From: a virus
Length of the DNA stretch: 64,000 nt
Reading direction: 5' to 3' (one strand)
Virus record (IMG/VR): IMGVR_UViG_3300027746_000697
Coordinates: 52,632-116,631 of that record
The notes below the pieces were generated by a model. That model was not told the DNA's origin. It did not search any database and saw nothing but the letters and a program-made list of their open reading frames with translations. The stretch's first letter is position 1, and the number at the start of each line of letters is the position of its first letter. Positions 22,160 through 54,958 of this stretch are shown here, in pieces. Made by a program: the position numbers and the translations under genes.

Positions 22160-24058
22160 ATGAAAACTATACAACTTTTATCGCTCACCGGCTGGAACGA
22201 TTTTATCCCAGTTCTTTGGCCAAGTGCAAAAACATTTTATGAATTGTATGGTAAATATCCTGAAAATTATAACTGGATATTGCCTACAACCGAAATTCAT
22301 AGAGATATAGAAGAAAATCAACGTGAATTGTCATTGAATCCTCCAGATGTGCTAGGCGTAAGTTTGTATGTATGGAATTATGACAGAACCATGTCATTAT
22401 TAAAATGGGCAAAAGAACAATGGCCAAATTGTCTAATTATTACGGGCGGCCCACACCAATACTTTAAACATCACCCCGACTGGTTTCGAAAAAATTGGTT
22501 TATTGATGCAAGTTTGCCCAGCGAAGTATACGGAGAGATTGCCATCACTGACATATTAAACAATTTGAAGGATGATAATACCATCAGCTGGAATACCGTT
22601 GAACAAATGGTTTATCCTAGTAAGGATCGTTCAATGATGTTGAAGAGTCCAAAAGCATCTTACAAACGAGATTTTAAATGGAATTATTCTGCTTTTGAAG
22701 CACAGCAAGAACATATACAACAGTATATTGATTACTACTATGCAAATTCAGAAAATCCAGCGTTGCATAGTAAACTTGAAACAACTAGAGGTTGCCCGTA
22801 TGAATGTACGTTTTGTGATTGGGGCGGCGGCATTGGCACCAAAGTAATTCTGAAAGACTTAGATTGTGTCAAAAAAGATTTAGACGTATTGTTAAGTTAT
22901 GATATTAGCAGTGTGTATGTATGCGATGCTAATTTTGGAATCAACGGAGAACGAGATGTTGGCATAGTTCAATACATTGCAGATAAGAAAAACGCTTCTC
23001 TGAAAGATCGATTTCCAAATGTACAATATGGCGGATATGCTAAAACTAACAAACACTTTCATTTTTTAAAAAGAATCTTTACTATTGAGGCTATTAATAA
23101 AATGTCGTATGTGTACAAGATGTCCCAACAGTCATTTAACACTAACATATTAGCTAATATCAAACGTACAGATTTACGGGTGAACGAACATTTTGAATTA
23201 GCGGATTATCTTCGAACAGAATTTGGTTACGAAGCCACTATTGAAATTATTATAGGACTACCGGGTACTACATTAGATACTTGGTATAACGAATTTAACA
23301 TACCATACGAAAAACAAATACTAGTTCGAGCATATGAATGGTACTTGTTACCCGAAGCCGAAAGTTTTGAAAAAGAGTACAGAGATAAATGGGGTATTAA
23401 AACAGCTCTCAAACGTGCGGATCAGCTTATTGATGGCATTCCCAGTGAGATTGTTGTTGAAGGTGGTACATTTTCAAGAAATGATTACAAAGAATTTACA
23501 ACTGCGTATGCACTATATATTTTCTTTAATCAGAGTGGAGTCTATAAGAAATCTATCAAAGAGTTATTGAAAATAAAAAATATAAAATTTGGAGATTTCT
23601 TAAGACAATTTTATAATGAATGTTATCCGTTGTTAAAATTGGCCAGTTTAGAATCATTCACACATTTTGAAAAACATCTAGACGAAGTGGTTTCGGACGA
23701 GATAAACGAAACATTTCATAATTTAACATGGTTAAACAACCACGGCCCGCAGGTACATAGATTCATTTATTTTATTATAGAATATTTCAAGCACTATGAA
23801 ATGCTTGGTCCTATTGTTGAAAAATGGTTTATTGAAAATGGTGTAAACCCATCGTTAGTGCAAGGTGAAGCCGAGACAATATATAGCGCAAAGCGATTAA
23901 ATACCACTAGAGGGTTTATTAAAAAAATATCTTTTGATTTTTATAAAGACGAAAGAGAATTTTATGAGGATGTTATGCGGTCAAGCCAATATACTTATGG
24001 AAATTTGTTAGTAGCCGAAAAACGTGTCCTGAGTGCTAATATAACTTGGGGATTTTAA
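22160..24058 (+). CDS. B12-binding-type radical SAM protein
   Basis: 632 residues. The N-terminal part has a cobalamin-binding-like Rossmann domain (PPDVLGVSLYVWNYDRTMSL, then LIITGGPHQYF) but lacks an obvious D-x-H-x-x-G, so B12 may not be bound. The radical SAM core begins near residue 205 with TRGCPYECTFCDWGG, the C-x3-C-x2-C cluster motif, followed by VYVCDANFGI and EIIIGLPGTTLDTW. A 200-residue helical C-terminal part follows. Such proteins do methyl transfer or ring chemistry on unknown substrates. ATG 22160 follows AAAGGATAAG. It is followed by a hydroxylase-like and a methyltransferase gene. Confidence 0.88.
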   Translation: MKTIQLLSLTGWNDFIPVLWPSAKTFYELYGKYPENYNWILPTTEIHRDIEENQRELSLNPPDVLGVSLYVWNYDRTMSLLKWAKEQWPNCLIITGGPHQYFKHHPDWFRKNWFIDASLPSEVYGEIAITDILNNLKDDNTISWNTVEQMVYPSKDRSMMLKSPKASYKRDFKWNYSAFEAQQEHIQQYIDYYYANSENPALHSKLETTRGCPYECTFCDWGGGIGTKVILKDLDCVKKDLDVLLSYDISSVYVCDANFGINGERDVGIVQYIADKKNASLKDRFPNVQYGGYAKTNKHFHFLKRIFTIEAINKMSYVYKMSQQSFNTNILANIKRTDLRVNEHFELADYLRTEFGYEATIEIIIGLPGTTLDTWYNEFNIPYEKQILVRAYEWYLLPEAESFEKEYRDKWGIKTALKRADQLIDGIPSEIVVEGGTFSRNDYKEFTTAYALYIFFNQSGVYKKSIKELLKIKNIKFGDFLRQFYNECYPLLKLASLESFTHFEKHLDEVVSDEINETFHNLTWLNNHGPQVHRFIYFIIEYFKHYEMLGPIVEKWFIENGVNPSLVQGEAETIYSAKRLNTTRGFIKKISFDFYKDEREFYEDVMRSSQYTYGNLLVAEKRVLSANITWGF

Positions 24059-24061
24059 ATT

Positions 24062-24706
24062 ATGAAAAATGCTGTTGAATGTTTAAACTTCAAAGTTGAT
24101 TTGAATCAACTACGTTCTTACTACAACGAACTTAAAGCATCGTATCAAGAATACAATTGGTCTTATATGGATAATCCTGAAGATATCCGGGACGACATTT
24201 ATAATTTTAATAATCAATATAACAAAAAACGCAATGCATTTGGGTGGGCTATCACTGTGCCTGAAATACTGAGCGATAATAAAAAAGTTGTACCGTGGAC
24301 TAATATACATAAAGATTTTGTATATGGTGCTGAACATTTGGCAACTGAAAAACAAACACCTATGGTTTTTGGTATAGTTAAAAAAATACTAGAAATATTT
24401 CCGTATGCAAAACAAGTTAGTTTAACTGTGTTTGTACCGGGTGCGCATATTGTTCCACACAAAGACGAAGATTACTTAATTAGAGTACATATTCCAATTT
24501 ACACAAGCAAGGATGCCAAGTGGTTAACATGGAACGGTTACCAACCTCTTGACAAGGTTGGGCAAGCCTATCTGTGCGACACTAGAGATATTCATAGTGT
24601 ATACAACGATGGCGATTCTGATAGAGTTCACTTGTTATTTGCCATAGAATCACAGTATGAAGAACATATTAAAAGCATAACTGGTATACTAAAGACAGAT
24701 GAATGA
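24062..24706 (+). CDS. Aspartyl/asparaginyl beta-hydroxylase-like protein
   Basis: 214 residues. Key segment near residues 135-205: FVPGAHIVPHKDEDYLIRVHIPI with the H-x-D ligand pair and Arg, then CDTRDIHSVYNDGDSDRVHLLFAIE with the distal His and the Arg-Val-His that closes the cupin fold. This 'PHxD ... RVHIPI ... H ... N-G-x-x-x-R-V-H-L' pattern recurs in at least six proteins between 35 and 47 kb. The N-terminal part is family-specific. Overlaps the methyltransferase gene. Confidence 0.82.
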   Translation: MKNAVECLNFKVDLNQLRSYYNELKASYQEYNWSYMDNPEDIRDDIYNFNNQYNKKRNAFGWAITVPEILSDNKKVVPWTNIHKDFVYGAEHLATEKQTPMVFGIVKKILEIFPYAKQVSLTVFVPGAHIVPHKDEDYLIRVHIPIYTSKDAKWLTWNGYQPLDKVGQAYLCDTRDIHSVYNDGDSDRVHLLFAIESQYEEHIKSITGILKTDE

Positions 24707-25379
24707 AATTAAAGAATTTTATTCTCGACTACAATTTCCAGGTACTTATACTATTGTAGATTTAGAATTTTATGACAGCATAGTATGTAATGACTATCTA
24801 AAAATATTTGATGATGCAGTATCCGGAGCAAGTTCAGTTTTAGATATTGGGTGTGGAAGTGGTTTCATTATTAATTTTCTAGCACGAAGATATCCCAACA
24901 TATCATTTGATGCTGTTGATTTTAGTGACAGTATTGATATTGCCAAACGGTTTAGTAAAGATCATGGCATCTATAATATTAATTATTATAAAGAAGATTT
25001 TTTAACTTGGAATACTGATAAAACTTACGATTTAATTTTGTCTAACGGTGTACTGCATCATATTCCAGAATATAAACAGGCCATAAGTAAAATACATACT
25101 TTAGCAACTGATAAAGTTGTGATTGGTATTTACAACAAGTACGGAAAAGTATTAAAACGTATTGCAAAAGTACAATACGTATCAAATATATTATACATAG
25201 ATCAAGAGCAGTGTCCGTTTGAAATGGCATTTACTGATAAAGAATTTAAAAGTTTATTTGATATATTTGATATCCACACAGCGTATCCAAGTTTCCAAAA
25301 TAAATTAATCGATTTTATAAACTTGTTTAATGCCAAAAACGGCGGACTAACCATTTATTCCATGAGCTTGCCAAAGTAA
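24699..25379 (+). CDS. Class I SAM-dependent methyltransferase
   Basis: 226 residues with the SAM-binding motif I VLDIGCGSGFIINFLARRYP (about residue 45), motif II with the acidic residue in FDAVDFSDS, and DLILSNGVLHHIPEYKQAIS as motif IV/V, all standard for small-molecule methyltransferases. Start overlaps the preceding stop by eight bases. With the radical SAM and hydroxylase genes before it, it may modify the same product. Confidence 0.88.
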   Translation: MNEIKEFYSRLQFPGTYTIVDLEFYDSIVCNDYLKIFDDAVSGASSVLDIGCGSGFIINFLARRYPNISFDAVDFSDSIDIAKRFSKDHGIYNINYYKEDFLTWNTDKTYDLILSNGVLHHIPEYKQAISKIHTLATDKVVIGIYNKYGKVLKRIAKVQYVSNILYIDQEQCPFEMAFTDKEFKSLFDIFDIHTAYPSFQNKLIDFINLFNAKNGGLTIYSMSLPK

Positions 25380-26525: not shown

Positions 26526-26533
26526 TAATCAAA

Positions 26534-34102: not shown

Positions 34103-34746
34103 GTAACTTAATTTTATTCACTTCGGGTAGCACTACTGATCCAAAGGAAATATCTCATCCTTGGGAATTTATTAACAGTTGTGCAGAGCAATCAGTAGAC
34201 GAAATTAAACTAACGTCAACTGACATTGTACTAGATGTGTTTCCTGGAAATACAATAGCACATTATACTGTTACAGCATTACCTGCAAGAATAGCAGGAG
34301 CAACTCTAATTTCCGCTAATTTCAATCCTTACTCATATATCGAACTGTTTAACAAATATAGACCTACGTATATTAGTTTAATTCCAAAACACTGGGATTT
34401 ACTTTCTAAAACCAAGGGCTGGGATAATTTTGATATGAACTGTGTTAGATATATGGTAACTGGTAGCGGAACATGTTCACAAACTATGATTGATTCATTC
34501 CTAAGCAGAGGCGTACAGCTAGTTGCCAATTGGTATGGCATGACTGAAATGCCTCCGCCGGTATTCATAGGCTACAACTCCGAAACCTTTGACTTCGATA
34601 CTGCAAAGAATTATAACGTTGAGTTTGATAACGGTGAATGTATTATTAACGGTTGGCGCACAGGCGATATATTTGATGTGAATGAAAAAAAGTTTATATC
34701 ACGAAAAGATACAGCAAATGGAAAAACTTGGAAATCTAACATTTAG
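34099..34746 (+). CDS. Miniature adenylate-forming (ANL superfamily) enzyme
   Basis: 215 residues, less than half the normal 450-600. The protein begins directly at the ATP-binding motif A3 (ILFTSGSTTDPKEISH), then has RYMVTGSGTCSQTM (A4 region), NWYGMTEMPPPVF (A5, Y-G-x-T-E), GWRTGDIFDV (A7, T-G-D) and FISRKDTANGKTWKSN (A8, R-x-x-D and a Lys). All N-terminal substrate-pocket sequence before A3 is missing and the C-terminal lid is cut to a few residues. It might form acyl-adenylates for the following GNAT. The frame is intact, so it is not a random fragment. Confidence 0.82.
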   Translation: MSNLILFTSGSTTDPKEISHPWEFINSCAEQSVDEIKLTSTDIVLDVFPGNTIAHYTVTALPARIAGATLISANFNPYSYIELFNKYRPTYISLIPKHWDLLSKTKGWDNFDMNCVRYMVTGSGTCSQTMIDSFLSRGVQLVANWYGMTEMPPPVFIGYNSETFDFDTAKNYNVEFDNGECIINGWRTGDIFDVNEKKFISRKDTANGKTWKSNI

Positions 34747-35296
34747 ACCTTTAGTTGATTCCGATCGTTTAGCATTGGCAACTTTTTGTGTAGAGTGCGA
34801 AAAACTTGGATACGAAAACAATAAATCGTTTGAGTCAATTAAACTTGATAAAATGAAAATGCCTTACGGACAATTCTTTGTTGGGTTGGATCAAGATAAA
34901 ATTGTTACGTTTGCTGGAGTGCATCATCTGCCAGAGCTAGGTAATAATGCATGGAGATGTTTATTTCGTGGAGCACAACTTCCGGGGTATACTCCAACAT
35001 GGAGTATTAACATTTTTAAAAGTTGGATACATTTATCTCACTTACTGTATTATCAAATTAAGCTAGTTCAACAATTAGATCCAACTGCTGAATTTTACAT
35101 TAGCACAAATGTAGACAACAAAAAAGCGGGAGTAAGTTCCCGCTTGGATAAAACTATAATGCCTAGACTAGTTAAGCAAGGTATGTTTACCTTACATAAC
35201 AAAGACATTATACTATATAATACTCTTCAAAATGTTTGGAAATTAAACACAGAAACGTATCTCAGTGAACGCAATCTTTATATTGAAAATTCATGA
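34718..35296 (+). CDS. GNAT-like acyltransferase
   Basis: 192 residues from ATG 34718 (an ATG at 34682 is possible but overlaps the adenylase by 65 bases). LTFRPLVDSDRLALATFCVE is the usual first strand and helix of a GNAT, FFVGLDQDKIVTFAGVHHLP the second pair of strands, and AEFYISTNVDNKKAGVSSRL follows the central helix. The pyrophosphate loop is weak, so this is a moderate call. Coupled to the mini-adenylase, suggesting acyl transfer to an amine. Ends convergent with the hydroxylase block. Confidence 0.6.
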   Translation: MEKLGNLTFRPLVDSDRLALATFCVECEKLGYENNKSFESIKLDKMKMPYGQFFVGLDQDKIVTFAGVHHLPELGNNAWRCLFRGAQLPGYTPTWSINIFKSWIHLSHLLYYQIKLVQQLDPTAEFYISTNVDNKKAGVSSRLDKTIMPRLVKQGMFTLHNKDIILYNTLQNVWKLNTETYLSERNLYIENS

Positions 35297-38288: not shown

Positions 38289-38289
38289 C

Positions 38290-40499: not shown

Positions 40500-40519
40500 A
40501 TAGTTTGCTACACTACTTA

Positions 40520-40527
40520 TGTAAATA
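40520..40527 (+). promoter_or_regulatory. T4-type late promoter (TGTAAATA) four bases before an ATG
   Basis: TGTAAATA-TCTC-ATG. One base departs from the TATAAATA consensus; no ribosome site in between. Confidence 0.5.
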
Positions 40528-40531
40528 TCTC

Positions 40532-41530: not shown

Positions 41531-41975
41531 AGAAAATAAAGAAAAACATCGATCTACTTATTTTTGTGGAGACCGTTATCGTAAAGTATGGACCAATACT
41601 ACCTCTAAGTGGATTAGAGATCATGTGCAATTGCTCAAAGAACATATACCCGGTTATGTGTTAGATTTTGGAGAGAATTGGATTGAATATAGTGTTATCC
41701 CAGGAACCCCTGTAAATACTATTCCACATACAGATGATTTCATATTACGAATACATGAATTTTGTTTAGAAAACATCCAACAAACAAAACCATATGTTCA
41801 TGGCGATTGGGTACTAAGTAATATGCTAATACACGACAATGTTATTCGATTATGCGACTGGGATAATTTTGGCATATACTCCGAAGAAGAGATAACGCAA
41901 AAATTATACTCAGACTTGTTATCAGCATTTGGTGAAAGATATTTAAAGGTTATACATGACTCCGCAAGCGTTTAG
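41517..41975 (+). CDS. Truncated aminoglycoside/choline kinase-like protein
   Basis: 152 residues. YVHGDWVLSNMLIHDNVIRL then CDWDNFG is the catalytic loop H-G-D-x4-N with the metal-binding D-W-D, typical of the APH/choline kinase fold. The N-lobe is cut down to about 85 residues (normal enzymes are over 250), with a DFGENWIEYSVIPGTP strand pair. It lies within the radical SAM locus and overlaps both neighbours. Activity not assured. Confidence 0.72.
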   Translation: MELIKENKEKHRSTYFCGDRYRKVWTNTTSKWIRDHVQLLKEHIPGYVLDFGENWIEYSVIPGTPVNTIPHTDDFILRIHEFCLENIQQTKPYVHGDWVLSNMLIHDNVIRLCDWDNFGIYSEEEITQKLYSDLLSAFGERYLKVIHDSASV

Positions 41976-43179: not shown

Positions 43180-44293
43180 AGCGTTCGAAGACTTTTACAA
43201 AGAAGAACCAATTAAACATTTGGTCTTACACAATCACAACAACGTGTTAGTTAGTCCTCCGTTTGCTACAGAACAATGTAAAGACTATAGTAAAGTAATG
43301 TGTAAAGACGGGGACAAGACTTGGTTTATAGAATTAGACTTGCCTCCAGCTACTAGTAAATTTAATGCCATCTCAAGTATAGGCGATAGTGTTTGGTTTA
43401 TTCCCTATGGTATATGGGATGATTTCAATGTAGTTGTACAATTAAAAGATTTTAAACCAATATACCATTATATCGACAAGCCGGGCAAAGGACAATTCTA
43501 TAGTTCAGCAACTGACGGCAAAACAGCATTTAGTTTTCCTTTAGGTTACGAAGAAACTAGCTATGGTATACATATCAAAGATGATGTCGTACATACTGTA
43601 GAATTTGATAGACAAGAACACACTAAAACTCACATGGGCACTGTACATGCCAATGGCAGATACTGGAGTGCGCCACGCGGCGATACTGCTGGTTATATTA
43701 ACATGACTAGTTTTGATGGTGTTAACATAGAGACATTTCCAATCAATGTTAAAAATCCTAGCGTAACTAGAAAGTATTCGGACATAATTGTAAATGGTAA
43801 TACACTTTACATTTTACCATTTGGGGAGACTTGTGGGGTATCGGAGTTAATAGAATTTGATACGGTTACAAACACATATAAACTTCATGAGTTAGACATT
43901 CCTGATTTTGCTAAGAAATATAATGCTGGGGTGCTAGTAGAAGATACAATCATAGCTTTGCCTTATGGAGATGAACATGCAGACGACAGTCAATGGGGAT
44001 TAACTTACAACATTGTTACTGGCAAGTATTCTACCTTTGACATAGGATTATCATTTGGTGGCAAGTATAGATTTAGGTCGGGTGTTGCATACGGTGGCAA
44101 TGCTATGTTTTTACCTACCGGAACTCCCAGCTGTCCTATTTTAACTATTAACAAGCATGGAAAAATATTAGCAAGGGATATGCTTGCTGATCATTTACTA
44201 GGAAGACCTATTATACATAAGAACAGCGTAGTGACTATAGGTCACAATTTTAATGACAAAGAAAGTTATATAGTAACTTTGGATTCTTTTTGA
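43169..44293 (+). CDS. Beta-propeller protein, paralogue of the preceding one
   Basis: 374 residues with about seven repeats: VLVSPPFA, VWFIPYGI, AFSFPLGY, RYWSAPRG, LYILPFGE, IIALPYGD and AMFLPTGT. The order and spacing follow the 41956 protein but similarity is moderate. Its 3' end overlaps the 3' end of the convergent radical SAM gene by 28 bases. The two propellers could be surface-exposed receptor binders or scaffolds for the modification enzymes. Confidence 0.75.
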   Translation: MKYKAFEDFYKEEPIKHLVLHNHNNVLVSPPFATEQCKDYSKVMCKDGDKTWFIELDLPPATSKFNAISSIGDSVWFIPYGIWDDFNVVVQLKDFKPIYHYIDKPGKGQFYSSATDGKTAFSFPLGYEETSYGIHIKDDVVHTVEFDRQEHTKTHMGTVHANGRYWSAPRGDTAGYINMTSFDGVNIETFPINVKNPSVTRKYSDIIVNGNTLYILPFGETCGVSELIEFDTVTNTYKLHELDIPDFAKKYNAGVLVEDTIIALPYGDEHADDSQWGLTYNIVTGKYSTFDIGLSFGGKYRFRSGVAYGGNAMFLPTGTPSCPILTINKHGKILARDMLADHLLGRPIIHKNSVVTIGHNFNDKESYIVTLDSF

Positions 44294-45180
44294 AGATAAA
44301 TATCGCTAAGACAACTACATTTGTTAGCAGGGCACGTTATAGGATCAGTTGGTAAGGTATAATTTTCCAAGTTGCCTAACTTGCCGCCTTGCTTACACTC
44401 AGATCTATATATGTCGCCCCACATGTCAATACTAAGCATATCTAAGCCTGCCCAGCAATTCCAACCTTTGTAATTGTTTAAACCTTTTACAATAATATCG
44501 TTTCCTGTGACAGGCAAGTTATCAAGCAATAGAGATCCCCTGTGTATTTTTGAATCATCTATTTTTCTAAAATACGGCCAAGATTTAATAATAGCTTTTT
44601 GTTCGTCAGTGTAGTCACTTACATTGTTAGTTACAAATTCGCCGCTAGTTTTGTCTAAAACTACTTTAGGCCAAATAGCCAACTTGTTAGTTCCGTTGTA
44701 CAATTGCTGGCCTATTTGAACTATACGATCAAATTTGTCTTGCACCATCATTAAATTAACAACAACTACACATTCCACTGCGTTGGCAATATTGATGATA
44801 TGATCAATATCGGCATATTCGTCGTGGAAACTAATCATGATACCATCTGCAAATTTGCTAATTTCTTTATAGTATTCAACTGTTTGACTTCCATTAGTTA
44901 AGAAAGTAAATTGATGACCTTTGGATTTAACTAGTTTAGCCAAGTCTAAAAAATGTTTCCAATATGTAGGTTCGCCGCCACTAATTCTATAACAAATATT
45001 TTTACCAAGGATATCAAATTTGGTTACAAATTGTTCAACTACCTCCCAGTTAGGTTGGCCAGTACTACCGTCATTGAGGTAGTCAGGACAATAGCTACAA
45101 CGATAATTGCATTTATTTGATAAGGTCCATGCAACTAGGAACCAATTCTTTTTACTAGGATCAGCGTAAGTTAGCTTCAT
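44266..45180 (-). CDS. Radical SAM protein
   Basis: 304 residues. Core WTLSNKCNYRCSYCPDYLND near residue 20 (C-x3-C-x2-C), CYRISGGEPTYW (G-G-E-P), GIMISFHDEYADIDHI. The C-terminus has a cysteine set NCWAGLDMLSIDMWGDIYRS, ECKQGG, CPANKCSCLS, which fits an auxiliary iron-sulfur cluster. Shares this plan with 50197 and 53987 (W-x-L-T-S-T/N-x-C-N-Y start, C-terminal Cys set). Overlaps the upstream hydroxylase-like gene by four bases. Confidence 0.9.
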   Translation of the reverse strand: MKLTYADPSKKNWFLVAWTLSNKCNYRCSYCPDYLNDGSTGQPNWEVVEQFVTKFDILGKNICYRISGGEPTYWKHFLDLAKLVKSKGHQFTFLTNGSQTVEYYKEISKFADGIMISFHDEYADIDHIINIANAVECVVVVNLMMVQDKFDRIVQIGQQLYNGTNKLAIWPKVVLDKTSGEFVTNNVSDYTDEQKAIIKSWPYFRKIDDSKIHRGSLLLDNLPVTGNDIIVKGLNNYKGWNCWAGLDMLSIDMWGDIYRSECKQGGKLGNLENYTLPTDPITCPANKCSCLSDIYLQKESKVTI

Positions 45181-45833
45181 TGTGACATTGAATGTTTAAT
45201 GATTAAATCGTGTGTTCTACGATTTAACTTCACTGTTAAGATTAAGTTGTATAAGTTATCTGAAAAGCTAAAGACACTATGATTTAATTGAAAATTAACA
45301 AAATACAAATGAGCACGTTCAGGCTTAAATATTTGATCGTGTAATATTTGTACGTAATTAAAATCAGAACAGCTACCAAACACACACGACAATCGAAAGT
45401 ACTGTGGCGCAACTCCTGCAAAATCTCTATGGGGAGGAAAATACCCTCCTTGATTTACCTTCAATATATGTACTCGACCAATGTCAGGATAAAATACATC
45501 AACTAAGTCTTTGATTTCTGGAACTGAATAATATACATCTGTGGGAGTTGTAAAATTTTCTTCTTTCATTTCCACATTGTGGTATTTTTGCATATATCCA
45601 AAACTATTAAGATGGTAGTTATCCATAACATCGCCAGTATGGCTAGTTACGGGTAATCCCCAGCGATTGTTATGCACGTCTTTCTTTTCATTATACGGAC
45701 ACCAGTTTTTAGAAAACTTTGCAAGCCCGGTTAACGTTGCAGTTTCGGGTAGTCTTAGATTTAATTTGGAATAACTTCCTAAGTTTGTTAAACTGTTCCA
45801 CAGCATTGCTCTTTCGAATTCTTCGTTAGTCAT
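45177..45833 (-). CDS. Asp/Asn beta-hydroxylase-like protein
   Basis: 218 residues. VHILKVNQGGYFPPHRDFAG (H-x-D) followed by FRLSCVFG, and HLYFVNFQLNHSVFSFSDNLYNLILTV with the distal His; the Arg of the last strand is replaced in the visible motif. The N-terminal half is family-specific. Overlaps genes on both sides. Confidence 0.75.
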   Translation of the reverse strand: MTNEEFERAMLWNSLTNLGSYSKLNLRLPETATLTGLAKFSKNWCPYNEKKDVHNNRWGLPVTSHTGDVMDNYHLNSFGYMQKYHNVEMKEENFTTPTDVYYSVPEIKDLVDVFYPDIGRVHILKVNQGGYFPPHRDFAGVAPQYFRLSCVFGSCSDFNYVQILHDQIFKPERAHLYFVNFQLNHSVFSFSDNLYNLILTVKLNRRTHDLIIKHSMSQ

Positions 45834-46578
45834 ACATCATCCCGTGCGTCATCGAGTAACTTTTACAGGCTAATTTCATTGCTTCTTTATTCCATGTTTT
45901 TCCTAAGGGAGATGCAATAATATGAATACGTGGAACATTGCTAAGATTTCTAACTCCGTGATATCTTGCAACATCTATAATTCTAACATCTCCAGGAACC
46001 CAAGGTACCAATCCTCCGTCTTCCAAACCAAATTCAACTCCGCTTGGGTTAATCATAGCAATGTTAATGCCGCCACCTAACATCTGTCCTTCCCAATCTC
46101 TGTGTGGATTAATATAACCGCCAGCATCTAAAACCATTATTCTAATTCTACTATAACTTGTAAAAGGTATATTGTCTTTAATCCATTGCACAGTCTTTGG
46201 AAAAATGTGGCAAGAATCTGTCCATGTTTCAACGGCATCATTAGAAACTATGCCTTCTTCTTTATAGTAACCGGAGTAATCAGACATTAAAGAAGAATAG
46301 CCATGCAACGTTACGGTGCGCCATCCTTTGCTATCTCCGGCTCTGTGAGGAATTGCAAGTTTGCTTGCTTTGTGTTGCAGTTCTTCTACAACTTCATCTA
46401 TTGATACATTAACATCTAAGCGTAAACAAGCACATTTACTACTTTCTCGTATCCAGTTAAAATAATTTGTTAAAATAGAATCGTCAGTTTGCCAGCCAAT
46501 GAATTCTTTAGGAGCAACTAGCGCATCCTTATTAAATGGGCGAACTCGTTCGTTGTCAAAAAACTGATCTATATCCAT
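45826..46578 (-). CDS. Aspartyl/asparaginyl beta-hydroxylase (PF05118-like)
   Basis: 250 residues. IRIMVLDAGGYINPHRDWEG (H-x-D), IAMINPSGVEF, and DVARYHGVRNLSNVPRIHII (distal His, R-I-H) are the classic signature; GWRTVTLHGYSS matches GWGSLTLHGL of the 39783 protein. These two are the most canonical hydroxylases of the window. Overlaps the upstream unknown gene by ten bases. Confidence 0.87.
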   Translation of the reverse strand: MDIDQFFDNERVRPFNKDALVAPKEFIGWQTDDSILTNYFNWIRESSKCACLRLDVNVSIDEVVEELQHKASKLAIPHRAGDSKGWRTVTLHGYSSLMSDYSGYYKEEGIVSNDAVETWTDSCHIFPKTVQWIKDNIPFTSYSRIRIMVLDAGGYINPHRDWEGQMLGGGINIAMINPSGVEFGLEDGGLVPWVPGDVRIIDVARYHGVRNLSNVPRIHIIASPLGKTWNKEAMKLACKSYSMTHGMMYD

Positions 46579-47321
46579 GGCAAGGCTTCAAATCTTTTAT
46601 CTAATTTTTTATTTTGGATATCTTTGGCTCGCACACAGTCAAAAAATTCGCCGTCGGCGGAATCCATTTCGACATACCAGTCAATTTTATCATTTGCAAG
46701 TATTTCAATAAATTGATTTTGCATTTGTAATCGTAACTTTACATCATAAATTAATGCGCTTACGCTATATAAGAAACAATTACTTACAACAAAAAATCCC
46801 TTAGTTCCATTACACGTTGATAAAAACTTTTTAAGTTCATCGGAATTAAAAATATCAAGTTGACTATAAGAAGATACTTCTTTATAAATCCCCATGGATT
46901 TGTGGATAGCTGTTGGACTTATATCGATAACATAATGATTATTACCCAGTAAACCAATGTCTATTGGATTTTTATCTACTTTATCGCCAGCGGCTAGTGA
47001 TATTAGACAATCAAAAGTTTTAAAATGTTCGCTAGGTATACGAATTCTATCTTCTGTATTATTTGTAAAGTATACATTAAAATTAAAAATGTCGTTTACA
47101 ACGTGGGTGTCTTTAACAGTATATGTTAATTCACTAGTAGGAAACAATGAACCAACTTCTGCTTGCTCTAAATGAGGCTCGGCACCGTTGGCACAATAAA
47201 ATACTTCGTACCCTTTGTTTAATAGGAATGCTGTATTGTATTCAGTAATAGATTTTGCCATTTCATTAAGGCTTCGATTGTGGTAATCTTTGTGTAACCA
47301 AAAAAATTCTTTTTGACTCAT
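46569..47321 (-). CDS. Unknown 250-residue protein
   Basis: First gene of the reverse operon behind the late motif at 47349. YHNRSLNEMAKSITEYNTAF at the start, then an alpha/beta arrangement with HYVIDISPTAIHKSMGIYKE, LDIFNSDELKKFLSTC and GFFVVSNCFLYSVSALIY in the places of methyltransferase motifs, but without the glycine-rich SAM loop. Might be a degenerate methyltransferase. Not recognised with confidence. Confidence 0.6.
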   Translation of the reverse strand: MSQKEFFWLHKDYHNRSLNEMAKSITEYNTAFLLNKGYEVFYCANGAEPHLEQAEVGSLFPTSELTYTVKDTHVVNDIFNFNVYFTNNTEDRIRIPSEHFKTFDCLISLAAGDKVDKNPIDIGLLGNNHYVIDISPTAIHKSMGIYKEVSSYSQLDIFNSDELKKFLSTCNGTKGFFVVSNCFLYSVSALIYDVKLRLQMQNQFIEILANDKIDWYVEMDSADGEFFDCVRAKDIQNKKLDKRFEALPWI

Positions 47322-47366: not shown

Positions 47367-47954
47367 ATGAATTATAATATTTCTGACAAAGTAATACCAG
47401 ATATTATCAACCCATCGGAGTTTGATAAACAACAAGTATTTGGTGATAATACTAGTAGCGGCCACGTAATTATACGTACATCAAAAAACGAACAATTACT
47501 TTATTTAGATTATGCAGGAATTGGCGGAGCACCGTTGTACATAGGATTAACTAAATCAAGAGGGGACCAGATTAACAAGTTACCAATTGGTGCAGACGAT
47601 ATGATAGGTGGCTTACAGGTATACGCACGAACTACGCCTGGTAATAGTTTAGGCTACTGCCAGGAAGAAACACCACTGGCGGGTGGTTTGCATTTTAAAG
47701 TGTCCAGTGATTATTGTGGAACCGGGTCAGTACCAACAGAATTTTTGTTAGCATTAACCAACACTGATGGCATGTCAATCAAATTAAAAGTTGATGCAGA
47801 AGGCAACTTACAAACAGCCGGTAATATTACATCTGGGAATTTAACTATAACTGATCAAGAAGTTATCGGCATGCATCTGCCAACCAAATTTGTAAAAGCA
47901 ATACTCGCTGGTGTTGAGTATGCTATAGCACTGCACCCAATTCTGGAAAAATAG
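47367..47954 (+). CDS. Fibre-associated virion-like protein
   Basis: 195 residues, beta-rich (GHVIIRTSKNEQLLYLDYAG, GLHFKVSSDYCGTGSVP). The segment AEGNLQTAGNITSGNLTI resembles the N-I-T repeats of the fibre at 31191. It looks like a short tail-fibre or fibre-tip protein. A consensus late promoter precedes it; no clear ribosome site (GTACCGTTA before ATG). Confidence 0.6.
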   Translation: MNYNISDKVIPDIINPSEFDKQQVFGDNTSSGHVIIRTSKNEQLLYLDYAGIGGAPLYIGLTKSRGDQINKLPIGADDMIGGLQVYARTTPGNSLGYCQEETPLAGGLHFKVSSDYCGTGSVPTEFLLALTNTDGMSIKLKVDAEGNLQTAGNITSGNLTITDQEVIGMHLPTKFVKAILAGVEYAIALHPILEK

Positions 47955-49227
47955 TTCTAAAATCAATTCCACGCTGTTGATCGCACTGTTCTAAATATTC
48001 AATAGTTATTGGTAACTTGCTTGACCAATCTTCTGCCATCATGTACTGCACTAACCCAAGCCATCGTTGTTGCCCATATGGATTGTTTATAAATTCAGGA
48101 TCAGACATTCTACGAGAACAAAAATACTCTATTCTTTTTTGCACAGTCTTTTTCAATGCTGGTGGCAATACTCTTATATTTAAATAACTAGGAAGATAAA
48201 CCAAATGGGTTCCAATTAATCCTGCGCCATAAGGAGGCAAATTAATTTTCTTAAAATTCATGCTTTCTTTCCAATGCACTAGTTCAGTTATGTTCAATAT
48301 ATTTAATAGCTGAACTGCACAGGCAATGTTTACTGTGATGTTGTTAGGAGTATCGTCCAATCGTATTATGTTAGCAACAACATCATTCCATTTACTAGGG
48401 TAACGAATATAGTCGTTACGTGCTTCGATAGAATCAACACTAAAATTAAACTTAACTTCTTTAAAGTGTTTCCACAACTCAAACAATTTTTCAGGCAGTT
48501 CTAATCCATTAGAATTATAACGCACAACACATAATTTTGCGGCACCAGTTTCTACCATAAACTCTAAAATCTTATAGTGTTCGGGTATTAACAACGGTTC
48601 TCCTCCTGCAAAATACAGCTCCCTGATGTTATATGCGTTTGAACGCATATCTTTTAAAAACGTGCCTTTTTGATACCATGTGTAATCAAAGTCTACATTC
48701 CAACTTTGATCTTGTTTTAATTCCTGTATTTTATATTTTGGATATTGTACTTTCCAATCCTTAATCCAACTACTGCTATCGTGTGGACTGCACATGATAC
48801 ATTTTAATTGGCAAAGATTTCCTAATCGTAAATCAAAGTAAGGAATAGAAACTGGTAACGATCCGTCTCCAGCTGTTTGATCTACGATTGATTTTAAATC
48901 TAAACGCTCTGACCATACTTGAGTTTCCCAATTGCGTTTGCTTTTAATACCTTGTGCTTCTTCTTTAAAACACTTTTCACAACTAGTTGGAATTTTATTA
49001 GACAACATGGCTAATCGTATATTTTTCATATACTGGCTATTCCATATTTCACCAATAGTGTGTGTTTTAAGATTGAGATTTTCAGTACCTTCTTTAACTA
49101 GCCCGGCATCCTTAATATCTATAATGCCAGCTCCGCTAGCATTTGCTGTACAGCAAACACGCACATCGCCATTGGGACGAGTGGCAAGATGTATAAATGG
49201 TAACGGGCATAGTGTAGAAGAGGTCAT
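47923..49227 (-). CDS. Radical SAM protein (Twitch/SPASM type)
   Basis: 434 residues. N-terminal auxiliary region CPLPFIHLATRPNGDVRVCC and CEKCFKEE; the core FDLRLGNLCQLKCIMCSPHD near residue 133 (C-x3-C-x2-C); ELYFAGGEPLLIPEHY (G-G-E-P); KFNFSVDSIEARNDYIRYPS. This layout is that of 'twitch domain-containing radical SAM' proteins, common in viral and bacterial peptide-modifying loci. Start overlaps the upstream radical SAM stop. Confidence 0.9.
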   Translation of the reverse strand: MTSSTLCPLPFIHLATRPNGDVRVCCTANASGAGIIDIKDAGLVKEGTENLNLKTHTIGEIWNSQYMKNIRLAMLSNKIPTSCEKCFKEEAQGIKSKRNWETQVWSERLDLKSIVDQTAGDGSLPVSIPYFDLRLGNLCQLKCIMCSPHDSSSWIKDWKVQYPKYKIQELKQDQSWNVDFDYTWYQKGTFLKDMRSNAYNIRELYFAGGEPLLIPEHYKILEFMVETGAAKLCVVRYNSNGLELPEKLFELWKHFKEVKFNFSVDSIEARNDYIRYPSKWNDVVANIIRLDDTPNNITVNIACAVQLLNILNITELVHWKESMNFKKINLPPYGAGLIGTHLVYLPSYLNIRVLPPALKKTVQKRIEYFCSRRMSDPEFINNPYGQQRWLGLVQYMMAEDWSSKLPITIEYLEQCDQQRGIDFRTIFPELGAVL

Positions 49228-50210
49228 GTTATAAACTGTGCTCCCTGTTTGTCAAAGGACCCGCATTGTTTAGAACATTCTTTAAGCCCTGATGAATTCC
49301 AACATTTTTCAATTTTGTTAAAGTATCCTGACTGGAAAATTTCAGCAAGTGTTTGTGTTTTTAAATTTGGCATGTCAAATATCTTGTCCATATAATCGTT
49401 TCTAGATGTAGACATGGGTGGCATCCATTCCATGTCTAGCCAACAACATGGCGACACCACTCCTGTCGCACTGATGTATAATTGAGAATCTCGTTTAGCT
49501 TTACAAGTAATTGTTGGCAACTCTTCTTTCTGCGCAGTCTTAACCATCTCTACCATAGCTTCGCTTCTGTTGGTAGGATATAATATATGGGTAGTTCTTC
49601 CAAGCTCATCTAGAACATTAAATTTGCCGTCTTTGAATCGGCTAGTATGTTTTGTAAAGAAATCTTTGAAACCTAGTTCAACACTTAGTTGTTTACATTC
49701 TTCAACTTGATGCATGTTGTGTTCAAATACTAACATATCCCATCTAGCATCGCCTCCTGCGGCTATAAATGCTTTAGCATTTGTTATAATAACATGCCAG
49801 TCTGTAGATATTCTGTACAAGTGATGTGTGTCTGCTAATCCGTCAATGCCAAATATAACTCTCACATTTTGCTTTGCAATATCTTCCCACCATTTTAATG
49901 ATCTAGCACTTCCGTTAGTGTGCATTTGTAACGACATGGTTGGATTATTCAATCTTAGATATTTAAAAACTTCCAATGTATCTTTTGCAACTACAGGATC
50001 TCCTAAGTTGCCACACATGGTAAGATGATTTAACTGCTTGATAAAATCAATATCAAACCAAGAAGTAAATTGTTCTAACGTAATTTCATCCAGTGTAATA
50101 AATGGATCCAATACGCCGCCTGCGATTCGTCTAGGACACATAGGGCATTTAGCTTGACATTTGCTAGTAATCTCAAGGTGTATATTTTTAATATCATTAT
50201 AATTGTACAT
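49224..50210 (-). CDS. Radical SAM/SPASM protein
   Basis: 328 residues. Core HLEITSKCQAKCPMCPRRIAGG near residue 11 (C-x3-C-x2-C), LTMCGNLGDPVVAKD where the usual G-G-E-P is G-N-L-G-D-P, and VIFGIDGLADTHHLYR. The C-terminal SPASM-like set CKAKRDSQLYISATGVVSPC, CWLD then LKECSKQC fits a second cluster. Overlaps both neighbours, so it is translated with the other two radical SAM genes. Confidence 0.9.
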   Translation of the reverse strand: MYNYNDIKNIHLEITSKCQAKCPMCPRRIAGGVLDPFITLDEITLEQFTSWFDIDFIKQLNHLTMCGNLGDPVVAKDTLEVFKYLRLNNPTMSLQMHTNGSARSLKWWEDIAKQNVRVIFGIDGLADTHHLYRISTDWHVIITNAKAFIAAGGDARWDMLVFEHNMHQVEECKQLSVELGFKDFFTKHTSRFKDGKFNVLDELGRTTHILYPTNRSEAMVEMVKTAQKEELPTITCKAKRDSQLYISATGVVSPCCWLDMEWMPPMSTSRNDYMDKIFDMPNLKTQTLAEIFQSGYFNKIEKCWNSSGLKECSKQCGSFDKQGAQFIT

Positions 50211-51213
50211 TGTTATTCCTCTTTGTCACCCGTATATCTGATGTACAATCACACCATATCTTCTTACATTTAATAGGAGCAACTAACTCGGGTTTGAATT
50301 TAGAAATAAAATCAGGATCGTTTATATTTAAACTTGTATTAAAAATCTGTTCGCCGCAGTTACCTTCTACTTCACCTGCATAATTAATTCCAAGCCTGTC
50401 AAGGCCTACATTGCAATCCCAACCATAAAATTTATTCCACCCGTTTTCCATTAGTCGAAAAGAATCATAAGGTTCTTCAGTGCCATTTGAAAATATTACT
50501 TTTGCTTCTTTTTTATCAGTCTCGTCTATCTTACCAGCATTTTTCATGCGCATTACATATTCATCAGACGGGCGTTTTTTAACAGTATCTCTCATAAAAT
50601 CAAAATGTTCATTTTGATAATTTGTCATTACTTCTCCAGTTAACGGATCTGTGAGCAACACAGTTTTAACAAGCCACGGAGTTGGATGATTGACTAATTG
50701 ATTTAACATACCCATACTAACGTCCCACGCTAGTGGATCCATTAATACTCGGCCTGCACAGAACGCATCTGTTTCTTTGTATATCAAATCTAATAATTCT
50801 ATAATATGAGCAACATCACATTGTTCTCGGTGTACACTAATCTGTATATCGTCAAAATATTTGGCATACTCTTTCCACCAACGTATAGTCCGTGAACCGT
50901 TAGTATTAAGTGTAACACGGCAATCAGTAGATTCGTGTATGCGTTTAACAAACTCTCCTAATTCGGGCCACAAAGTCGGCTCGCCGCCCGATAAGGACAA
51001 TCGTATATTTGTTTTATTAAAATGAATTTTATAAGTTGATATTAGATGTTCTATATTCTTACAAATTAATTCTAAATTTGGAGGAAATCTATGTTTCCCG
51101 TCGTGAGAACCAGGCCAACAATAATTACATTCATAATTACAAGTGGAAGTTAACGACCATGTGATATACAAATAGTCGTTATGATTAAAATTAACAATAG
51201 CAATTGGTTTCAT
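50197..51213 (-). CDS. Radical SAM protein
   Basis: 338 residues. Core YITWSLTSTCNYECNYCWPG near residue 18, LSLSGGEPTLWPEL, DIQISVHREQCDVAHI; C-terminal Cys set GWDCNVGLDRLGINYAGEVE, NCGEQ, CKKIWCDCTSDI. Closely similar in plan to 44266 and 53987, forming a sub-family of three. In the same operon as 49224 and 47923. Confidence 0.9.
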   Translation of the reverse strand: MKPIAIVNFNHNDYLYITWSLTSTCNYECNYCWPGSHDGKHRFPPNLELICKNIEHLISTYKIHFNKTNIRLSLSGGEPTLWPELGEFVKRIHESTDCRVTLNTNGSRTIRWWKEYAKYFDDIQISVHREQCDVAHIIELLDLIYKETDAFCAGRVLMDPLAWDVSMGMLNQLVNHPTPWLVKTVLLTDPLTGEVMTNYQNEHFDFMRDTVKKRPSDEYVMRMKNAGKIDETDKKEAKVIFSNGTEEPYDSFRLMENGWNKFYGWDCNVGLDRLGINYAGEVEGNCGEQIFNTSLNINDPDFISKFKPELVAPIKCKKIWCDCTSDIRVTKRNNNVQL

Positions 51214-52100
51214 ATTATCCTAGATTTTTTTAATAACGACGGCACATCATTGATTATAAGTAAGTTTATACCTATAATGGTTTTATAATTGCATAACATC
51301 CTAACCCAGTCAGATCTTTCTGGAACGTAGAAGCTATTCCAAGATTGCGGCATCACCATCTTACCTAGTAACAAATATCCAATAGCCATATCGGGTGTTA
51401 TAGATTTTCCCGGACATGTATCAGTAAACCATTGTATAAATTTGTTTAATCGGTAAAACGGAGATGGGCTCGGTGGACGGAATACAAGATACCCACCTGC
51501 TTCTAAATGCGTTTCTGCTTGTAACTGGCCATCAGTTAAACTATTAGGATCGTTATCAGATTGTAATTCTAACCAATGTTTTCCTTTATGGGTATAGTTC
51601 ATGCATAAGTCTCCAAATTCCCTGTCAGCTTTAAAAAATAAAAAATCTTCACTTGTTAACGGAATTAGGTTCCTAGGTTCAAATCTAAAATATGCATTAA
51701 CACGGGGCTCACTATTAATTTGAATCTTATATTGTTCATACGAATGTATGCTGTCGTTAATGATTTTCCACAACTCGCAATTAACAGGAACCGTTGCTCT
51801 ATGTAACAAATTTAAATCTGAGTCTGATGTAATTACAGGAATATTGATTTCGTATTTTTTGTTTATTTTATCAACTGTATTGTTTATAGTTTTTAATAGT
51901 ACAACTTCATCGTCCTTGGATACATTGAAACTGGTATCGCTTATAAATAAATTTTTATTATTAATAGCATCGGTTAACAACTTGTAAAACTTATTGGCTG
52001 CTGGCCAATCGTACATTGCATAAAACAAACTAATATTTTCAGAGCCATTAGAAAATACAATTTCAATTCCTGGCCGGTTGTTGTAAATGTCATACTCCAT
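51210..52100 (-). CDS. Unknown 296-residue protein of the radical SAM operon
   Basis: Start set at ATG 52100, which overlaps the upstream stop (TAATG); a longer start at 52160 is less likely. Opens MEYDIYNNRPGIEIVFSNGS. Mixed alpha/beta with FRFEPRNLIPLTSEDFLFFK and an Asp/Asn-rich AETHLEAGGYLVFRPPSPSP region that faintly recalls an oxygenase H-x-(E) strand, but no full motif is seen. Located between a methyltransferase-like and a radical SAM gene. Confidence 0.6.
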   Translation of the reverse strand: MEYDIYNNRPGIEIVFSNGSENISLFYAMYDWPAANKFYKLLTDAINNKNLFISDTSFNVSKDDEVVLLKTINNTVDKINKKYEINIPVITSDSDLNLLHRATVPVNCELWKIINDSIHSYEQYKIQINSEPRVNAYFRFEPRNLIPLTSEDFLFFKADREFGDLCMNYTHKGKHWLELQSDNDPNSLTDGQLQAETHLEAGGYLVFRPPSPSPFYRLNKFIQWFTDTCPGKSITPDMAIGYLLLGKMVMPQSWNSFYVPERSDWVRMLCNYKTIIGINLLIINDVPSLLKKSRII

Positions 52101-52714
52101 TATACTTTTCCTATAATCATCCATCGTTTGTATAATGGTAATTCTAGTTCGCCAGCCCATAGTACATTGATATCACATTGTTTCTTAAACTCTTCTAAAC
52201 TGCTAGCTGTACGAACATGCTCTGGAATATTATAATTATTACTTTGTAATACAAGTAACGAGTTGTGAGGAACTCCAGACTTCCATAAGTCATATTGATC
52301 TTGCGTAATATGTTCGCAACTGGTATTGATTATGATATTTGCATCGCTTCTTATAGCACACATATCCAAAGTAACTGCTTTAAACTGCCCTTGCATTTCT
52401 TCTTGCTTATTCATCATAGTAGCAATTGGTTCGCATACTGGATCTATATCAATGCTACGAATGTTGGCAACAGGAATTCTACTTTGAAATAACATACTGG
52501 CCAGCACTCCAACCCACCCGCCATGAATATCAATGGAAAACGGCTTGGGCATTGTACAATCAACTTTTGGATGTACTGCTAGTTCCAATGCATCTATCAA
52601 CCATTCTTTGCTTTTAAGTTGTCCACTCCAAAACGCATCCATGGTCCGCATAGGATCAGGGCTTTGTCGGATAGCTTGCATCCAATAGTGTAAGTGTTCT
52701 GTATCAATTTTCAT
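52100..52714 (-). CDS. SAM methyltransferase-like protein
   Basis: 204 residues. FSIDIHGGWVGVLASMLFQS in the place of motif I, RSIDIDPVCEPIATMM as the acidic motif II, KAVTLDMCAIRSDANIIINT and SCEHI as motifs III and IV. The glycine-rich loop is I-H-G-G-W-V-G instead of G-x-G-x-G. This matches a set of phage methyltransferase-like proteins of unknown substrate. Overlaps the upstream radical SAM gene. Confidence 0.72.
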   Translation of the reverse strand: MKIDTEHLHYWMQAIRQSPDPMRTMDAFWSGQLKSKEWLIDALELAVHPKVDCTMPKPFSIDIHGGWVGVLASMLFQSRIPVANIRSIDIDPVCEPIATMMNKQEEMQGQFKAVTLDMCAIRSDANIIINTSCEHITQDQYDLWKSGVPHNSLLVLQSNNYNIPEHVRTASSLEEFKKQCDINVLWAGELELPLYKRWMIIGKV

Positions 52715-53996
52715 AACAATACTCTAACCAAGATATCATCTCGGGGAAAATTTCTCTAGCATTTAAATTCCGTTGCGTTATTATATTAGTTTCCCAACAA
52801 GCAAACTGTTGTAAATCTGCTGTAGTATGTTTTCCAAAACTATTACCAATGCCTTTTAAAAAGGCAATATAGTGATTCCATTCCGGCGCATCAGTTTCAA
52901 TCCACAAACACACTTCATCTATGTATATATTAAAATCCGGAGTTAGCATCCACGGCGCAAGTTGCCCTGGGGAAACAATACTAGTTCGAATTAGATCTAC
53001 GTCAATGTTATGTTTATCCGATAATCTTTTAATCCATTTTAATAAATCTAAACAACTGGTAATACTCATAGCTGAATGAGTGATACTAAATCTAATTTCA
53101 CTTGCACCTGATTTAGAAAATTCTAAAATTTTATCTACGTTACTGGAAAATCTATCCCAGTTTAAATTAGTTCTTATGTACTCTGCTTTATTTCCGTATC
53201 CTTCTATGCTAATATGAAATTGTATAGATACTACGTCATTCAATTCTTTTATTTTTTCAAACCACTTAGTTAAATATTTTTCAGGAGTGTTACCATTTGT
53301 AAGAATAACCAACTCAGGTTTAACATTAAATTTATTTGGATTAGATTTTATTAACGGAATAAACTTGTCTATAAAATTATAAAATTCTGGTTGTATAAGA
53401 GGTTCCCCTCCTAAAATATAATATTGTAATAGCGTATTGGTACCATCTTCCTCAAGCCATTTCCAAAAAGCATCTTCAAACCCTGCAGGCGCAGTGTTTT
53501 GTTTTTTAGATGTAACATTAAATTTTTTATCTTCAGCTTCCCATTGAGAACTAAATGCACTACTACAATATATACATTTTAAATCACACGTATTATTAAA
53601 TGCAATTTCTATCATAGTTGGCATGGGTGTCAAATTGTTGGTAATTTCAGGAAACCGATCCTTGTGCATTTTATAATACGGTTCGGGCAATCTGCAACTG
53701 CGAACATTTTTAGATTCGCTATTCCAACAATTTTGGCATTCTGGATTTTTTATGTTGTTTAATTTGTCTTGCCTGGTATTGATTTCATATTCGCTGTTAG
53801 TGAATACATCTTTACCATATTTAGAAATATCATCACTGGTAATATACCTATGGGGAACATTGTGACACCCTTTAACAACTCCTTCTCCCAAGTGAACATA
53901 CAGGTAAATCCACTTCATAGCACACATAGCGGCATTATCAAACTCTTTTTCAAGTTTGGGAAATGTTTTTATGTAATCTCTAAAAGTTATTTGCAT
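52704..53996 (-). CDS. Radical SAM protein (Twitch type)
   Basis: 430 residues. N-terminal cysteines (CAMKWIYLYVHLGEGVVKGC; PECQNCWNSE) as auxiliary site; core EIAFNNTCDLKCIYCSSAFS near residue 134; YYILGGEPLIQPEF (G-G-E-P); SIQFHISIEGYGNKAEYIRT. Same architecture as 47923. Start overlaps the stop of 53987. Most likely a peptide- or protein-modifying enzyme. Confidence 0.9.
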   Translation of the reverse strand: MQITFRDYIKTFPKLEKEFDNAAMCAMKWIYLYVHLGEGVVKGCHNVPHRYITSDDISKYGKDVFTNSEYEINTRQDKLNNIKNPECQNCWNSESKNVRSCRLPEPYYKMHKDRFPEITNNLTPMPTMIEIAFNNTCDLKCIYCSSAFSSQWEAEDKKFNVTSKKQNTAPAGFEDAFWKWLEEDGTNTLLQYYILGGEPLIQPEFYNFIDKFIPLIKSNPNKFNVKPELVILTNGNTPEKYLTKWFEKIKELNDVVSIQFHISIEGYGNKAEYIRTNLNWDRFSSNVDKILEFSKSGASEIRFSITHSAMSITSCLDLLKWIKRLSDKHNIDVDLIRTSIVSPGQLAPWMLTPDFNIYIDEVCLWIETDAPEWNHYIAFLKGIGNSFGKHTTADLQQFACWETNIITQRNLNAREIFPEMISWLEYCYEN

Positions 53997-54958
53997 TTTG
54001 GTATCTTTGAATCTGCACTACTAACACAACTAGGTGTAGTACAGCGTTTAGGTTCTGTAAATAAATCAAAGCTGTCTAGCGTACCTAATGGCACATCGTG
54101 ACAACTGTAACTTCTTTTAACCTCATTACCTCTTATTATAACACTTTGATAGCCAGCATTGCAAGACCAGTTGGTGAATTTATTGAAACCAAACGCATTG
54201 AATCTTTCGGCTTGATCAAACAAATATTCGTTATTGTCTGCATCGTATAATGCTATTTGATAAGCGTCTTCTCCGTTTGCACGTTGTGGAAACCCTGTTT
54301 GCATTTTGTATATCATATCCTCAGTGTAGCCCGCTACTACCGCACTCGCTGTAGGATCGCTTTGGGGCTTTAATGTGACATTAATGCCGCGTTTATGGAA
54401 TCGTTCCATGCGAGCATACAACTCGTCAAACTTTTCAGGAACCATTACTTGATTGATTGTAACATGTACAAGTTCGTATTGTAACTGTAAACATTTGTCG
54501 CCAAACTCTTGCTCCTTGGCAAACTCATCGTGAAAGCTGGCTGTAATGCTTCTACGCTGTAATAATGCAGTATTGGCACACCAGGTATTCCACCATTTTG
54601 ATCCGGGACTCAAATTAGTGGTCATATGTATACTTTGATAAGGGCTTTCAGTTTCGTCTAAGTGTTTTATTAATTCTGGAAATTGTTTGTATGCTGTGGG
54701 CTCGCCCCCGCTGAAGCTCCAGTGGAACTGATCAAATCCATTGGCTCGTGCTTGACGCTTGATTTCGTCTACTGTAGATTTATATACTTCAAGTGGTTGG
54801 TGGTCCAACTTGTCACTGCGGGCATATGGCCAACAGTAACTACAATTATAATTGCAAAATCTACCCAAAATCCAACTGGTGGAAAATAATGGTTTGGTTA
54901 ACATTGTGCGTTGTCCAAACCGCACAATATGTTCGAATGGAATATCTGTAAAGTTCAT
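53987..54958 (-). CDS. Radical SAM protein
   Basis: 323 residues. Core SWILGRFCNYNCSYCWPYAR near residue 30, WSFSGGEPTAYKQF, SITASFHDEFAKEQEF; C-terminal cysteines NWSCNAGYQSVIIRG, SYSCHD, RCTTPSCVSS. First gene of the leftward operon that runs to 47923. Upstream is TTAAATA, a weak late-type motif. Belongs with 44266 and 50197 in one sub-family. Confidence 0.9.
   Translation of the reverse strand: MNFTDIPFEHIVRFGQRTMLTKPLFSTSWILGRFCNYNCSYCWPYARSDKLDHQPLEVYKSTVDEIKRQARANGFDQFHWSFSGGEPTAYKQFPELIKHLDETESPYQSIHMTTNLSPGSKWWNTWCANTALLQRRSITASFHDEFAKEQEFGDKCLQLQYELVHVTINQVMVPEKFDELYARMERFHKRGINVTLKPQSDPTASAVVAGYTEDMIYKMQTGFPQRANGEDAYQIALYDADNNEYLFDQAERFNAFGFNKFTNWSCNAGYQSVIIRGNEVKRSYSCHDVPLGTLDSFDLFTEPKRCTTPSCVSSADSKIPKCK

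Follow-up and report, generated by a model that had tools for sequence, protein, structure and literature searches.

A conserved radical SAM-methyltransferase gene pair in a hypervariable island of uncultured T4-like phages and its counterpart in Bdellovibrionota

Genes for radical S-adenosylmethionine (rSAM) enzymes are densely grouped in a 64,000-nt stretch of viral DNA (the window), which spans positions 52632-116631 of the 116,631-base IMG/VR record IMGVR_UViG_3300027746_000697; genes are named here by a window coordinate. Most of them lie in a hypervariable island of the host-recognition type in a T4-like phage, together with a four-gene core (53987, 52100, 49224 and 47923) that has a counterpart in Bdellovibrionota. 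The phage is regarded as T4-like because a 356-kb relative (G001), collinear with the window across 22-55 kb and mostly 83-95% identical in the genes compared, carries the T4 Gp23 capsid protein (3.5e-82), alongside terminase, portal, sheath and DNA polymerase genes judged T4-type by eye. The T4-like phages with this island are uncultured and form an abundant group. In a public virus collection, no fewer than 597 viral contigs encode a relative of the marker gene, 53987, and the best 80 of these show 83-93% identity, yet the gene is barely matched among deposited phages, where one species only of 50,697 records has a match, at 21% identity. A relative of 52100 was found in 194 viral contigs, with no homologue in the same 50,697 phage records, and at the nucleotide level the locus matched no deposited phage.

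A first-pass annotation of this DNA had listed eight rSAM proteins in three architectures, and both statements hold. The CxxxCxxC motif is intact in 8/8 genes, 7/8 exceed the Pfam cut-off in a genome search, and no rSAM gene beyond the eight was found in the 116.6-kb contig; seven of the eight lie within one 22.5-kb island (binomial P ~7e-5). Pfam and NCBIfam distinguish one cobalamin-binding (B12-type) protein, 22160; three proteins with an N-terminal twitch/SPASM domain, 40505 (ATG start at 40532), 47923 and 52704; and four in which the rSAM core comes first and a C-terminal cysteine-rich domain follows, 44266, 49224, 50197 and 53987. Core gene A (53987..54958, minus strand) belongs to the last type, its second domain being twitch-like (PF04055, 3.8e-13), and is conserved more strongly than any other gene of the island. 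The best fold matches of its structure model are MoaA and EpeE, rSAM enzymes with auxiliary clusters, at TM-scores of only 0.40-0.49, which do not imply orthology. Core gene M (52100..52714, minus strand) matches no family and has a predicted class I SAM methyltransferase fold, with an AlphaFold model (pLDDT 87) reaching Z ~16 to NTMT1 and to small-molecule methyltransferases. Because this model is close to protein N-terminal and small-molecule methyltransferases alike, it does not settle the substrate question. Core gene B (49224..50210, minus strand; PF04055, PF13186) is a fast-evolving rSAM with a C-terminal SPASM domain and has a homologue in most loci. Core gene C (47923..49227, minus strand) is an N-terminal-twitch rSAM that scores 398 bits against NF033640 (N_Twi_rSAM), whose cut-off of 170 bits is also passed by the accessory proteins 40505 (40505..41530, plus strand; 222 bits) and 52704 (52704..53996, minus strand; 217 bits). 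Two further accessory rSAM genes, both with the C-terminal cysteine-rich domain, are 50197 (50197..51213, minus strand; PF04055, 6.3e-15) and 44266 (44266..45180, minus strand; PF04055, 4.1e-12). A viperin-like defence role (NF038283) was rejected, the best score being 59 bits (50197) against a cut-off of 180. The seven genes of the operon 47923-54958, five of them rSAM genes, overlap their neighbours by 4-61 nt and include 51210 (51210..52160, minus strand), an unknown protein 24% identical (BLASTP, 4e-5) to the N-terminal region of an rSAM fusion protein of 682 aa that the 356-kb relative encodes; by this weak similarity it is a possible rSAM partner.

The pair formed by 53987 and 52100 is invariant among the relatives. 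Gene 52100 was present in 80/80 loci fetched with 53987 alone, as well as in 27/27 long contigs. Median amino-acid identity is 84% for 53987, 79% for 52100, 41% for 49224 and 47% for 47923, a contrast biased toward the first two because the relatives, which are contig fragments, were retained by their best identity to either gene. Third positions of 53987 are only 55% identical, so that constraint acts on the protein and recent spread is not the cause; despite the bias, third positions this close to saturation reveal strong selection on the 53987 protein.

Next to this constant pair, the position of the island is fixed and its content is hypervariable. The distance from 52100 to the kinase gene 28352 is ~15-36 kb, with the same relative orientation in 9/9 spanning contigs. 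The kinase (28352..28819, plus strand; P-loop type, AAA_33 2.5e-18), which occurs with 52100 on 9 contigs, serves as a conserved landmark outside the island, beside the fibre. The island itself is bounded by the tail-fibre-like protein 31191 (31191..32429, plus strand; Mtd_N 2.9e-8), whose tip is variable and whose N-terminus is conserved in 9/9 contigs, with 53-140 N-terminal residues at 44-57% identity in distant relatives. At the other end, it is bounded by a conserved block (55178..63389, plus strand; constant genes at 55178-62793). The first-pass limits of 22160-54958 are better replaced by 32491-54958. In the 26 long relatives tested, the number of rSAM genes is 5-15 throughout, and that of AspH-type hydroxylases (PF05118) ranges from 0 to 8. 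Tryptophan-halogenase, class-III aminotransferase, TauD, QueC-like and B12-rSAM genes occur in the relatives' islands, along with an amidinotransferase gene in one relative (G002), where Pfam missed it. In the window's own island, no halogenase, class-III aminotransferase, TauD, QueC-like or amidinotransferase gene was recognised (the last nowhere in the window), and the B12-rSAM gene 22160 lies outside it. A multi-enzyme modification island beside fibre genes, as proposed in the first-pass annotation, is well supported and recurs in relatives. That annotation had also held that unlinked and variable genes would speak against such a system; the hydroxylase array, the kelch genes, the adenylase and most other genes do vary, whereas the linkage of 53987 and 52100 does not.

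A counterpart of the core was found in bacteria. One scan of bacterial genome contigs yielded 23 loci with 53987 homologues, 46-60% identical and mostly from Bdellovibrionota. These homologues are adjoined by a 49224-type gene in 19/23 loci, a 47923-type gene in 19/23 (45-50% identical in the Bdellovibrionota loci) and a 52100-type gene in 10/23, and a 52100-type gene occurs somewhere in 21/23 genomes with the 53987-type gene. Across 240 Bdellovibrionota genomes, the 52100-type gene is present in 15 of 16 that are 53987-positive versus 8 of 224 that are 53987-negative (Fisher 3e-17). In a midpoint-rooted tree, the phage homologues of 53987 form one clade and the cellular homologues another (100/100). 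The Bdellovibrionota loci also hold GT2 glycosyltransferases, a QueC-like PP-loop protein, aminotransferase-like and AspH-like proteins, an uncharacterised protein family that these phages have too, and apparent housekeeping genes. T4 Gp23 was absent from the three Bdellovibrionota genomes checked, and a motif search near the bacterial core revealed no fibre-like gene, only two prepilin-like proteins without Pfam support. A wider spread of 53987 across bacterial phyla was rejected, as the five non-Bdellovibrionota matches form a clade of their own and three of them lie on contigs with Gp23. These three loci (L187, L191 and L195, in G041, G045 and G049), filed under bacterial metagenome-assembled genomes, are probably misbinned phage contigs because they carry T4 Gp23 as well as the rSAM core. 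An apparent fusion of a CxxxCxxC region to GT2 in Bdellovibrionota (L181, L189 and L193), at first sight an rSAM-glycosyltransferase fusion, was not used; Pfam gave no Radical_SAM match in the two that were scanned, L181 and L193.

Taken together, these findings make it probable that the core acts on something other than a phage-specific virion protein. Our leading candidate, a tentative one, is a glycan or lipid-linked glycan of the infected cell, a glycoconjugate at its surface or a small molecule related to these, which we favour over a virion protein because bacteria keep the core without phage fibres nearby. It is conceivable, though by no means assured, that the four genes constitute an undescribed, self-contained biosynthetic system common to a widespread group of T4-like phages and Bdellovibrionota, in which one conserved modification is diversified by swappable enzymes. 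The core would make a single conserved modification by radical C-H chemistry and combine it with a methylation, and its product would be diversified by the variable enzymes between the core edge and the fibre. A plausible benefit would be an altered surface of the infected cell, through receptor masking or competitor exclusion, with the adjoining fibre gene keeping recognition matched to the altered surface. The halogenase, amidinotransferase, class-III aminotransferase and TauD genes of related islands make up a toolkit typical of small-molecule tailoring. Genes resembling the Fe-S scaffolds IscU and IscA, recognised by eye on the same contig (L003, contig positions 45228-45909) and similarly in G024 near 35-36 kb, could serve a phage so rich in rSAM enzymes. 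A strictly conserved rSAM-methyltransferase pair in a hypervariable recognition island and in predatory-type bacteria points to one specific chemistry, perhaps at the phage-host or predator-prey interface, and 53987 and 52100 are the two genes to assay.

Several points weigh against a glycoconjugate or small-molecule substrate. SPASM/twitch rSAM enzymes act most often on peptides or proteins. No glycosyltransferase was recognised in the window's own island, and the GT2 genes near the core are weak evidence, since Bdellovibrionota commonly have such genes. Moreover, the targets of the core genes could differ between phage and bacterium.

That the enzymes modify proteins of the phage's own virion, such as those of the fibres or baseplate, an idea which the first-pass annotation had named ahead of host surface glycans and small molecules, is possible but rather unlikely. 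In 9/9 contigs the slot ends at a fibre whose anchor is constant and whose tip varies, further rSAM genes follow long fibre-like proteins in the 356-kb relative, and both the SPASM/twitch rSAM enzymes and the AspH-type hydroxylases include known protein modifiers. Additionally, rSAM genes lie near tail-fibre genes in Campylobacter phage CP21. This explanation is weakened by the presence of the same core in Bdellovibrionota chromosomes, near glycosyltransferases and without a fibre-like neighbour, although phage-like surface fibres also reported in Bdellovibrio (PMC10769870) make a shared fibre substrate conceivable. Furthermore, an identity of ~84% in 53987 alongside differing fibre tips would be odd for an enzyme fitted to the tip.

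It is improbable that the island makes a small molecule or modified peptide that diffuses (an antibiotic, a signal or a siderophore-like compound) and acts against competitors or steers the host. The enzymes found in these islands would suit such a product, being a mixture of methyltransferases and oxygenases with a halogenase, an amidinotransferase, aminotransferases, a truncated adenylase and a B12-rSAM of the TokK/KedN5 kind. However, no gene for the precursor of a ribosomally synthesised and post-translationally modified peptide fits in the seven-gene operon, where the overlaps leave no place for one (small open reading frames elsewhere were not searched), and the window genes that were searched included no recognisable non-ribosomal peptide synthetase, polyketide synthase or exporter. 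Equally, the genes could be auxiliary metabolic genes that were acquired independently and accumulated at a recombination hot spot with no joint function, as suggested by the strong differences in content from contig to contig and by a Campylobacter phage module judged interchangeable and probably non-essential (PMC2853527); the unbroken 53987-52100 linkage, the co-occurrence of the two genes in bacteria and the strong protein-level constraint make this quite improbable. Synthesis of a modified nucleobase of the 7-deazaguanine type for DNA or tRNA by part of the locus is very improbable despite the QueC-like PP-loop proteins of related islands and sub-threshold QueE-like rSAM scores, as TGT/DpdA is absent from 14 contigs, including the 356-kb one, and no rSAM protein exceeds the QueE cut-off.

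The first-pass annotation knew of no phage locus of this density, a statement contradicted by two published cases; an rSAM-rich phage locus is thus not unprecedented. The Campylobacter phages CP220 and CPt10 encode 11-12 rSAM genes, five of them in a swappable module of 10-12 genes, and an amidinotransferase (Timms et al. 2010, PMC2853527). The host recognition cluster (HRC) of pelagimyophages and cyanomyophages, described in 2020, is hypervariable and contains fibre genes, many seemingly unrelated genes and rSAM cassettes (PMC7029224). Like CP220/CPt10 and CP21, the phages studied here carry many clustered rSAM genes in one region that is swappable among relatives; five rSAM genes fall within 10-12 genes there and five within the seven-gene operon here. 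An amidinotransferase gene, not recognised in the window, occurs in the relative G002. By contrast, neither a conserved rSAM-methyltransferase core nor a hydroxylase array is reported for CP220/CPt10, one rSAM protein of CP21 is only 21% identical to 53987, and 52100 lacks a homologue in any of the phage records. The HRC is similar in its T4-like backbone and in a variable island with fibre genes between conserved flanks (9/9 contigs here), and differs from the present island, which is denser in rSAM genes and has the constant 53987-52100 edge. The HRC is placed between VrlC and gp14, neither of which was located in the window or in G001. AspH is reported as a core protein of the HRC-bearing phage group, and the freshwater genomes of that study lacked rSAM genes (PMC7029224). 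No report of an invariant rSAM-methyltransferase core common to phages and Bdellovibrionota was found in the literature. Swappable, rSAM-rich phage islands are therefore already known, and the new part is this invariant core, which Bdellovibrionota have as well.

The first-pass count of ten or more hydroxylase or 2-oxoglutarate (2OG)-type proteins is matched by ten: eight above the PF05118 cut-off of 22.6 bits (24062, 32491, 35278, 36342, 36916, 37563, 39783 and 45826), the remote 45177 and 30414, a 2OG oxygenase below threshold. Five of them form an overlapping operon (35278..40499, minus strand; PF05118 3e-6 to 2.9e-13, gene overlaps 4-44 nt) with the DSP-like phosphatase 35903 and the unknown protein 38290. 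Others are 32491 (32491..33222, plus strand; 1e-5), 45826 (45826..46578, minus strand; 2.1e-9) and 45177 (45177..45833, minus strand), a remote AspH-type hydroxylase by HMM family and hhalign (probability 100). Adjacent to 45826 is an unknown protein (46569..47321, minus strand) weakly related to 38290 (hhalign 73.5). Of the two fibre-like genes first proposed, 31191 stands, and the second (47367..47954, plus strand), a short repeat-like protein and possible fibre part, is unconfirmed, with no Pfam or PHROG match. Two kelch-like proteins (41956-43179 and 43169-44293, plus strand) are mutual paralogues, the first with weak Kelch matches. The predicted mini-adenylase (34099..34746, plus strand) has an AMP-binding match (PF00501, 5.5e-17) that covers only profile positions 166-330 of 384, a truncated domain. 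Phosphatase-like proteins 29084, 29831 and 35903 were confirmed along with the P-loop kinase 28352. No Pfam or NCBIfam support above cut-off was obtained for the SGNH calls at 33224 (33224..34102, plus strand) and 20868, which match each other (hhalign 95.6); for the GNAT call at 34682 (34682..35296, plus strand), which lacks a Pfam match and has homologues in 13 loci; or for the small kinase-like protein 41505 (41505..41975, plus strand), with a weak GntI kinase match only. Genes described as all late-type showed no enrichment of the T4 late-promoter motif TATAAATA (5 observed against 7.4 expected).

Outside the island in the window, a separate cassette (22160..25379, plus strand) combines the B12-type rSAM 22160, the PF05118 hydroxylase 24062 and the methyltransferase 24699, which is supported by Pfam as 52100 is by its fold, in line with the methyltransferases first listed. 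In another locus (L032), this trio directly adjoins 53987. Protein 22160 falls below the Pfam rSAM cut-off (18.7-22.8 vs 29.5 bits) and is matched by B12-rSAM models over 360 residues. Among the cobalamin-dependent rSAM C-methyltransferases TokK, CysS and KedN5, it matches TokK (4.7e-30, residues 58-445) and KedN5 (NF033712, 141 bits), but lies far under the KedN5-family cut-off of 700 bits, and membership of that subfamily was rejected.

Several further genes were observed near the island or elsewhere on the contig. A DUF2828/DUF7788 protein (window 26468-27943; PF25043, 1.8e-47), possibly TROVE/vWA-like, adjoins the island in G001 too. The window contains 32 tRNA genes and a tmRNA candidate (10382-20866, 25697 and 55051), including a tRNA-Pro gene at the island edge. 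By eye, L001 (contig 981-2730) holds a GT4-type glycosyltransferase gene overlapping an LpxH-like metallophosphatase gene, an arrangement resembling the PlcP/Agt lipid-remodelling pairs. Genes for 5-aminolevulinate synthase, heme oxygenase and bilin reductase, likewise recognised by eye in L002/L003 (contig 23833-25032 and 53850-55068), form a set reported for aquatic phages (PMC11480375). Finally, a 72-aa protein resembling translation initiation factor IF-1 (window 56248-56466) is conserved in relatives.

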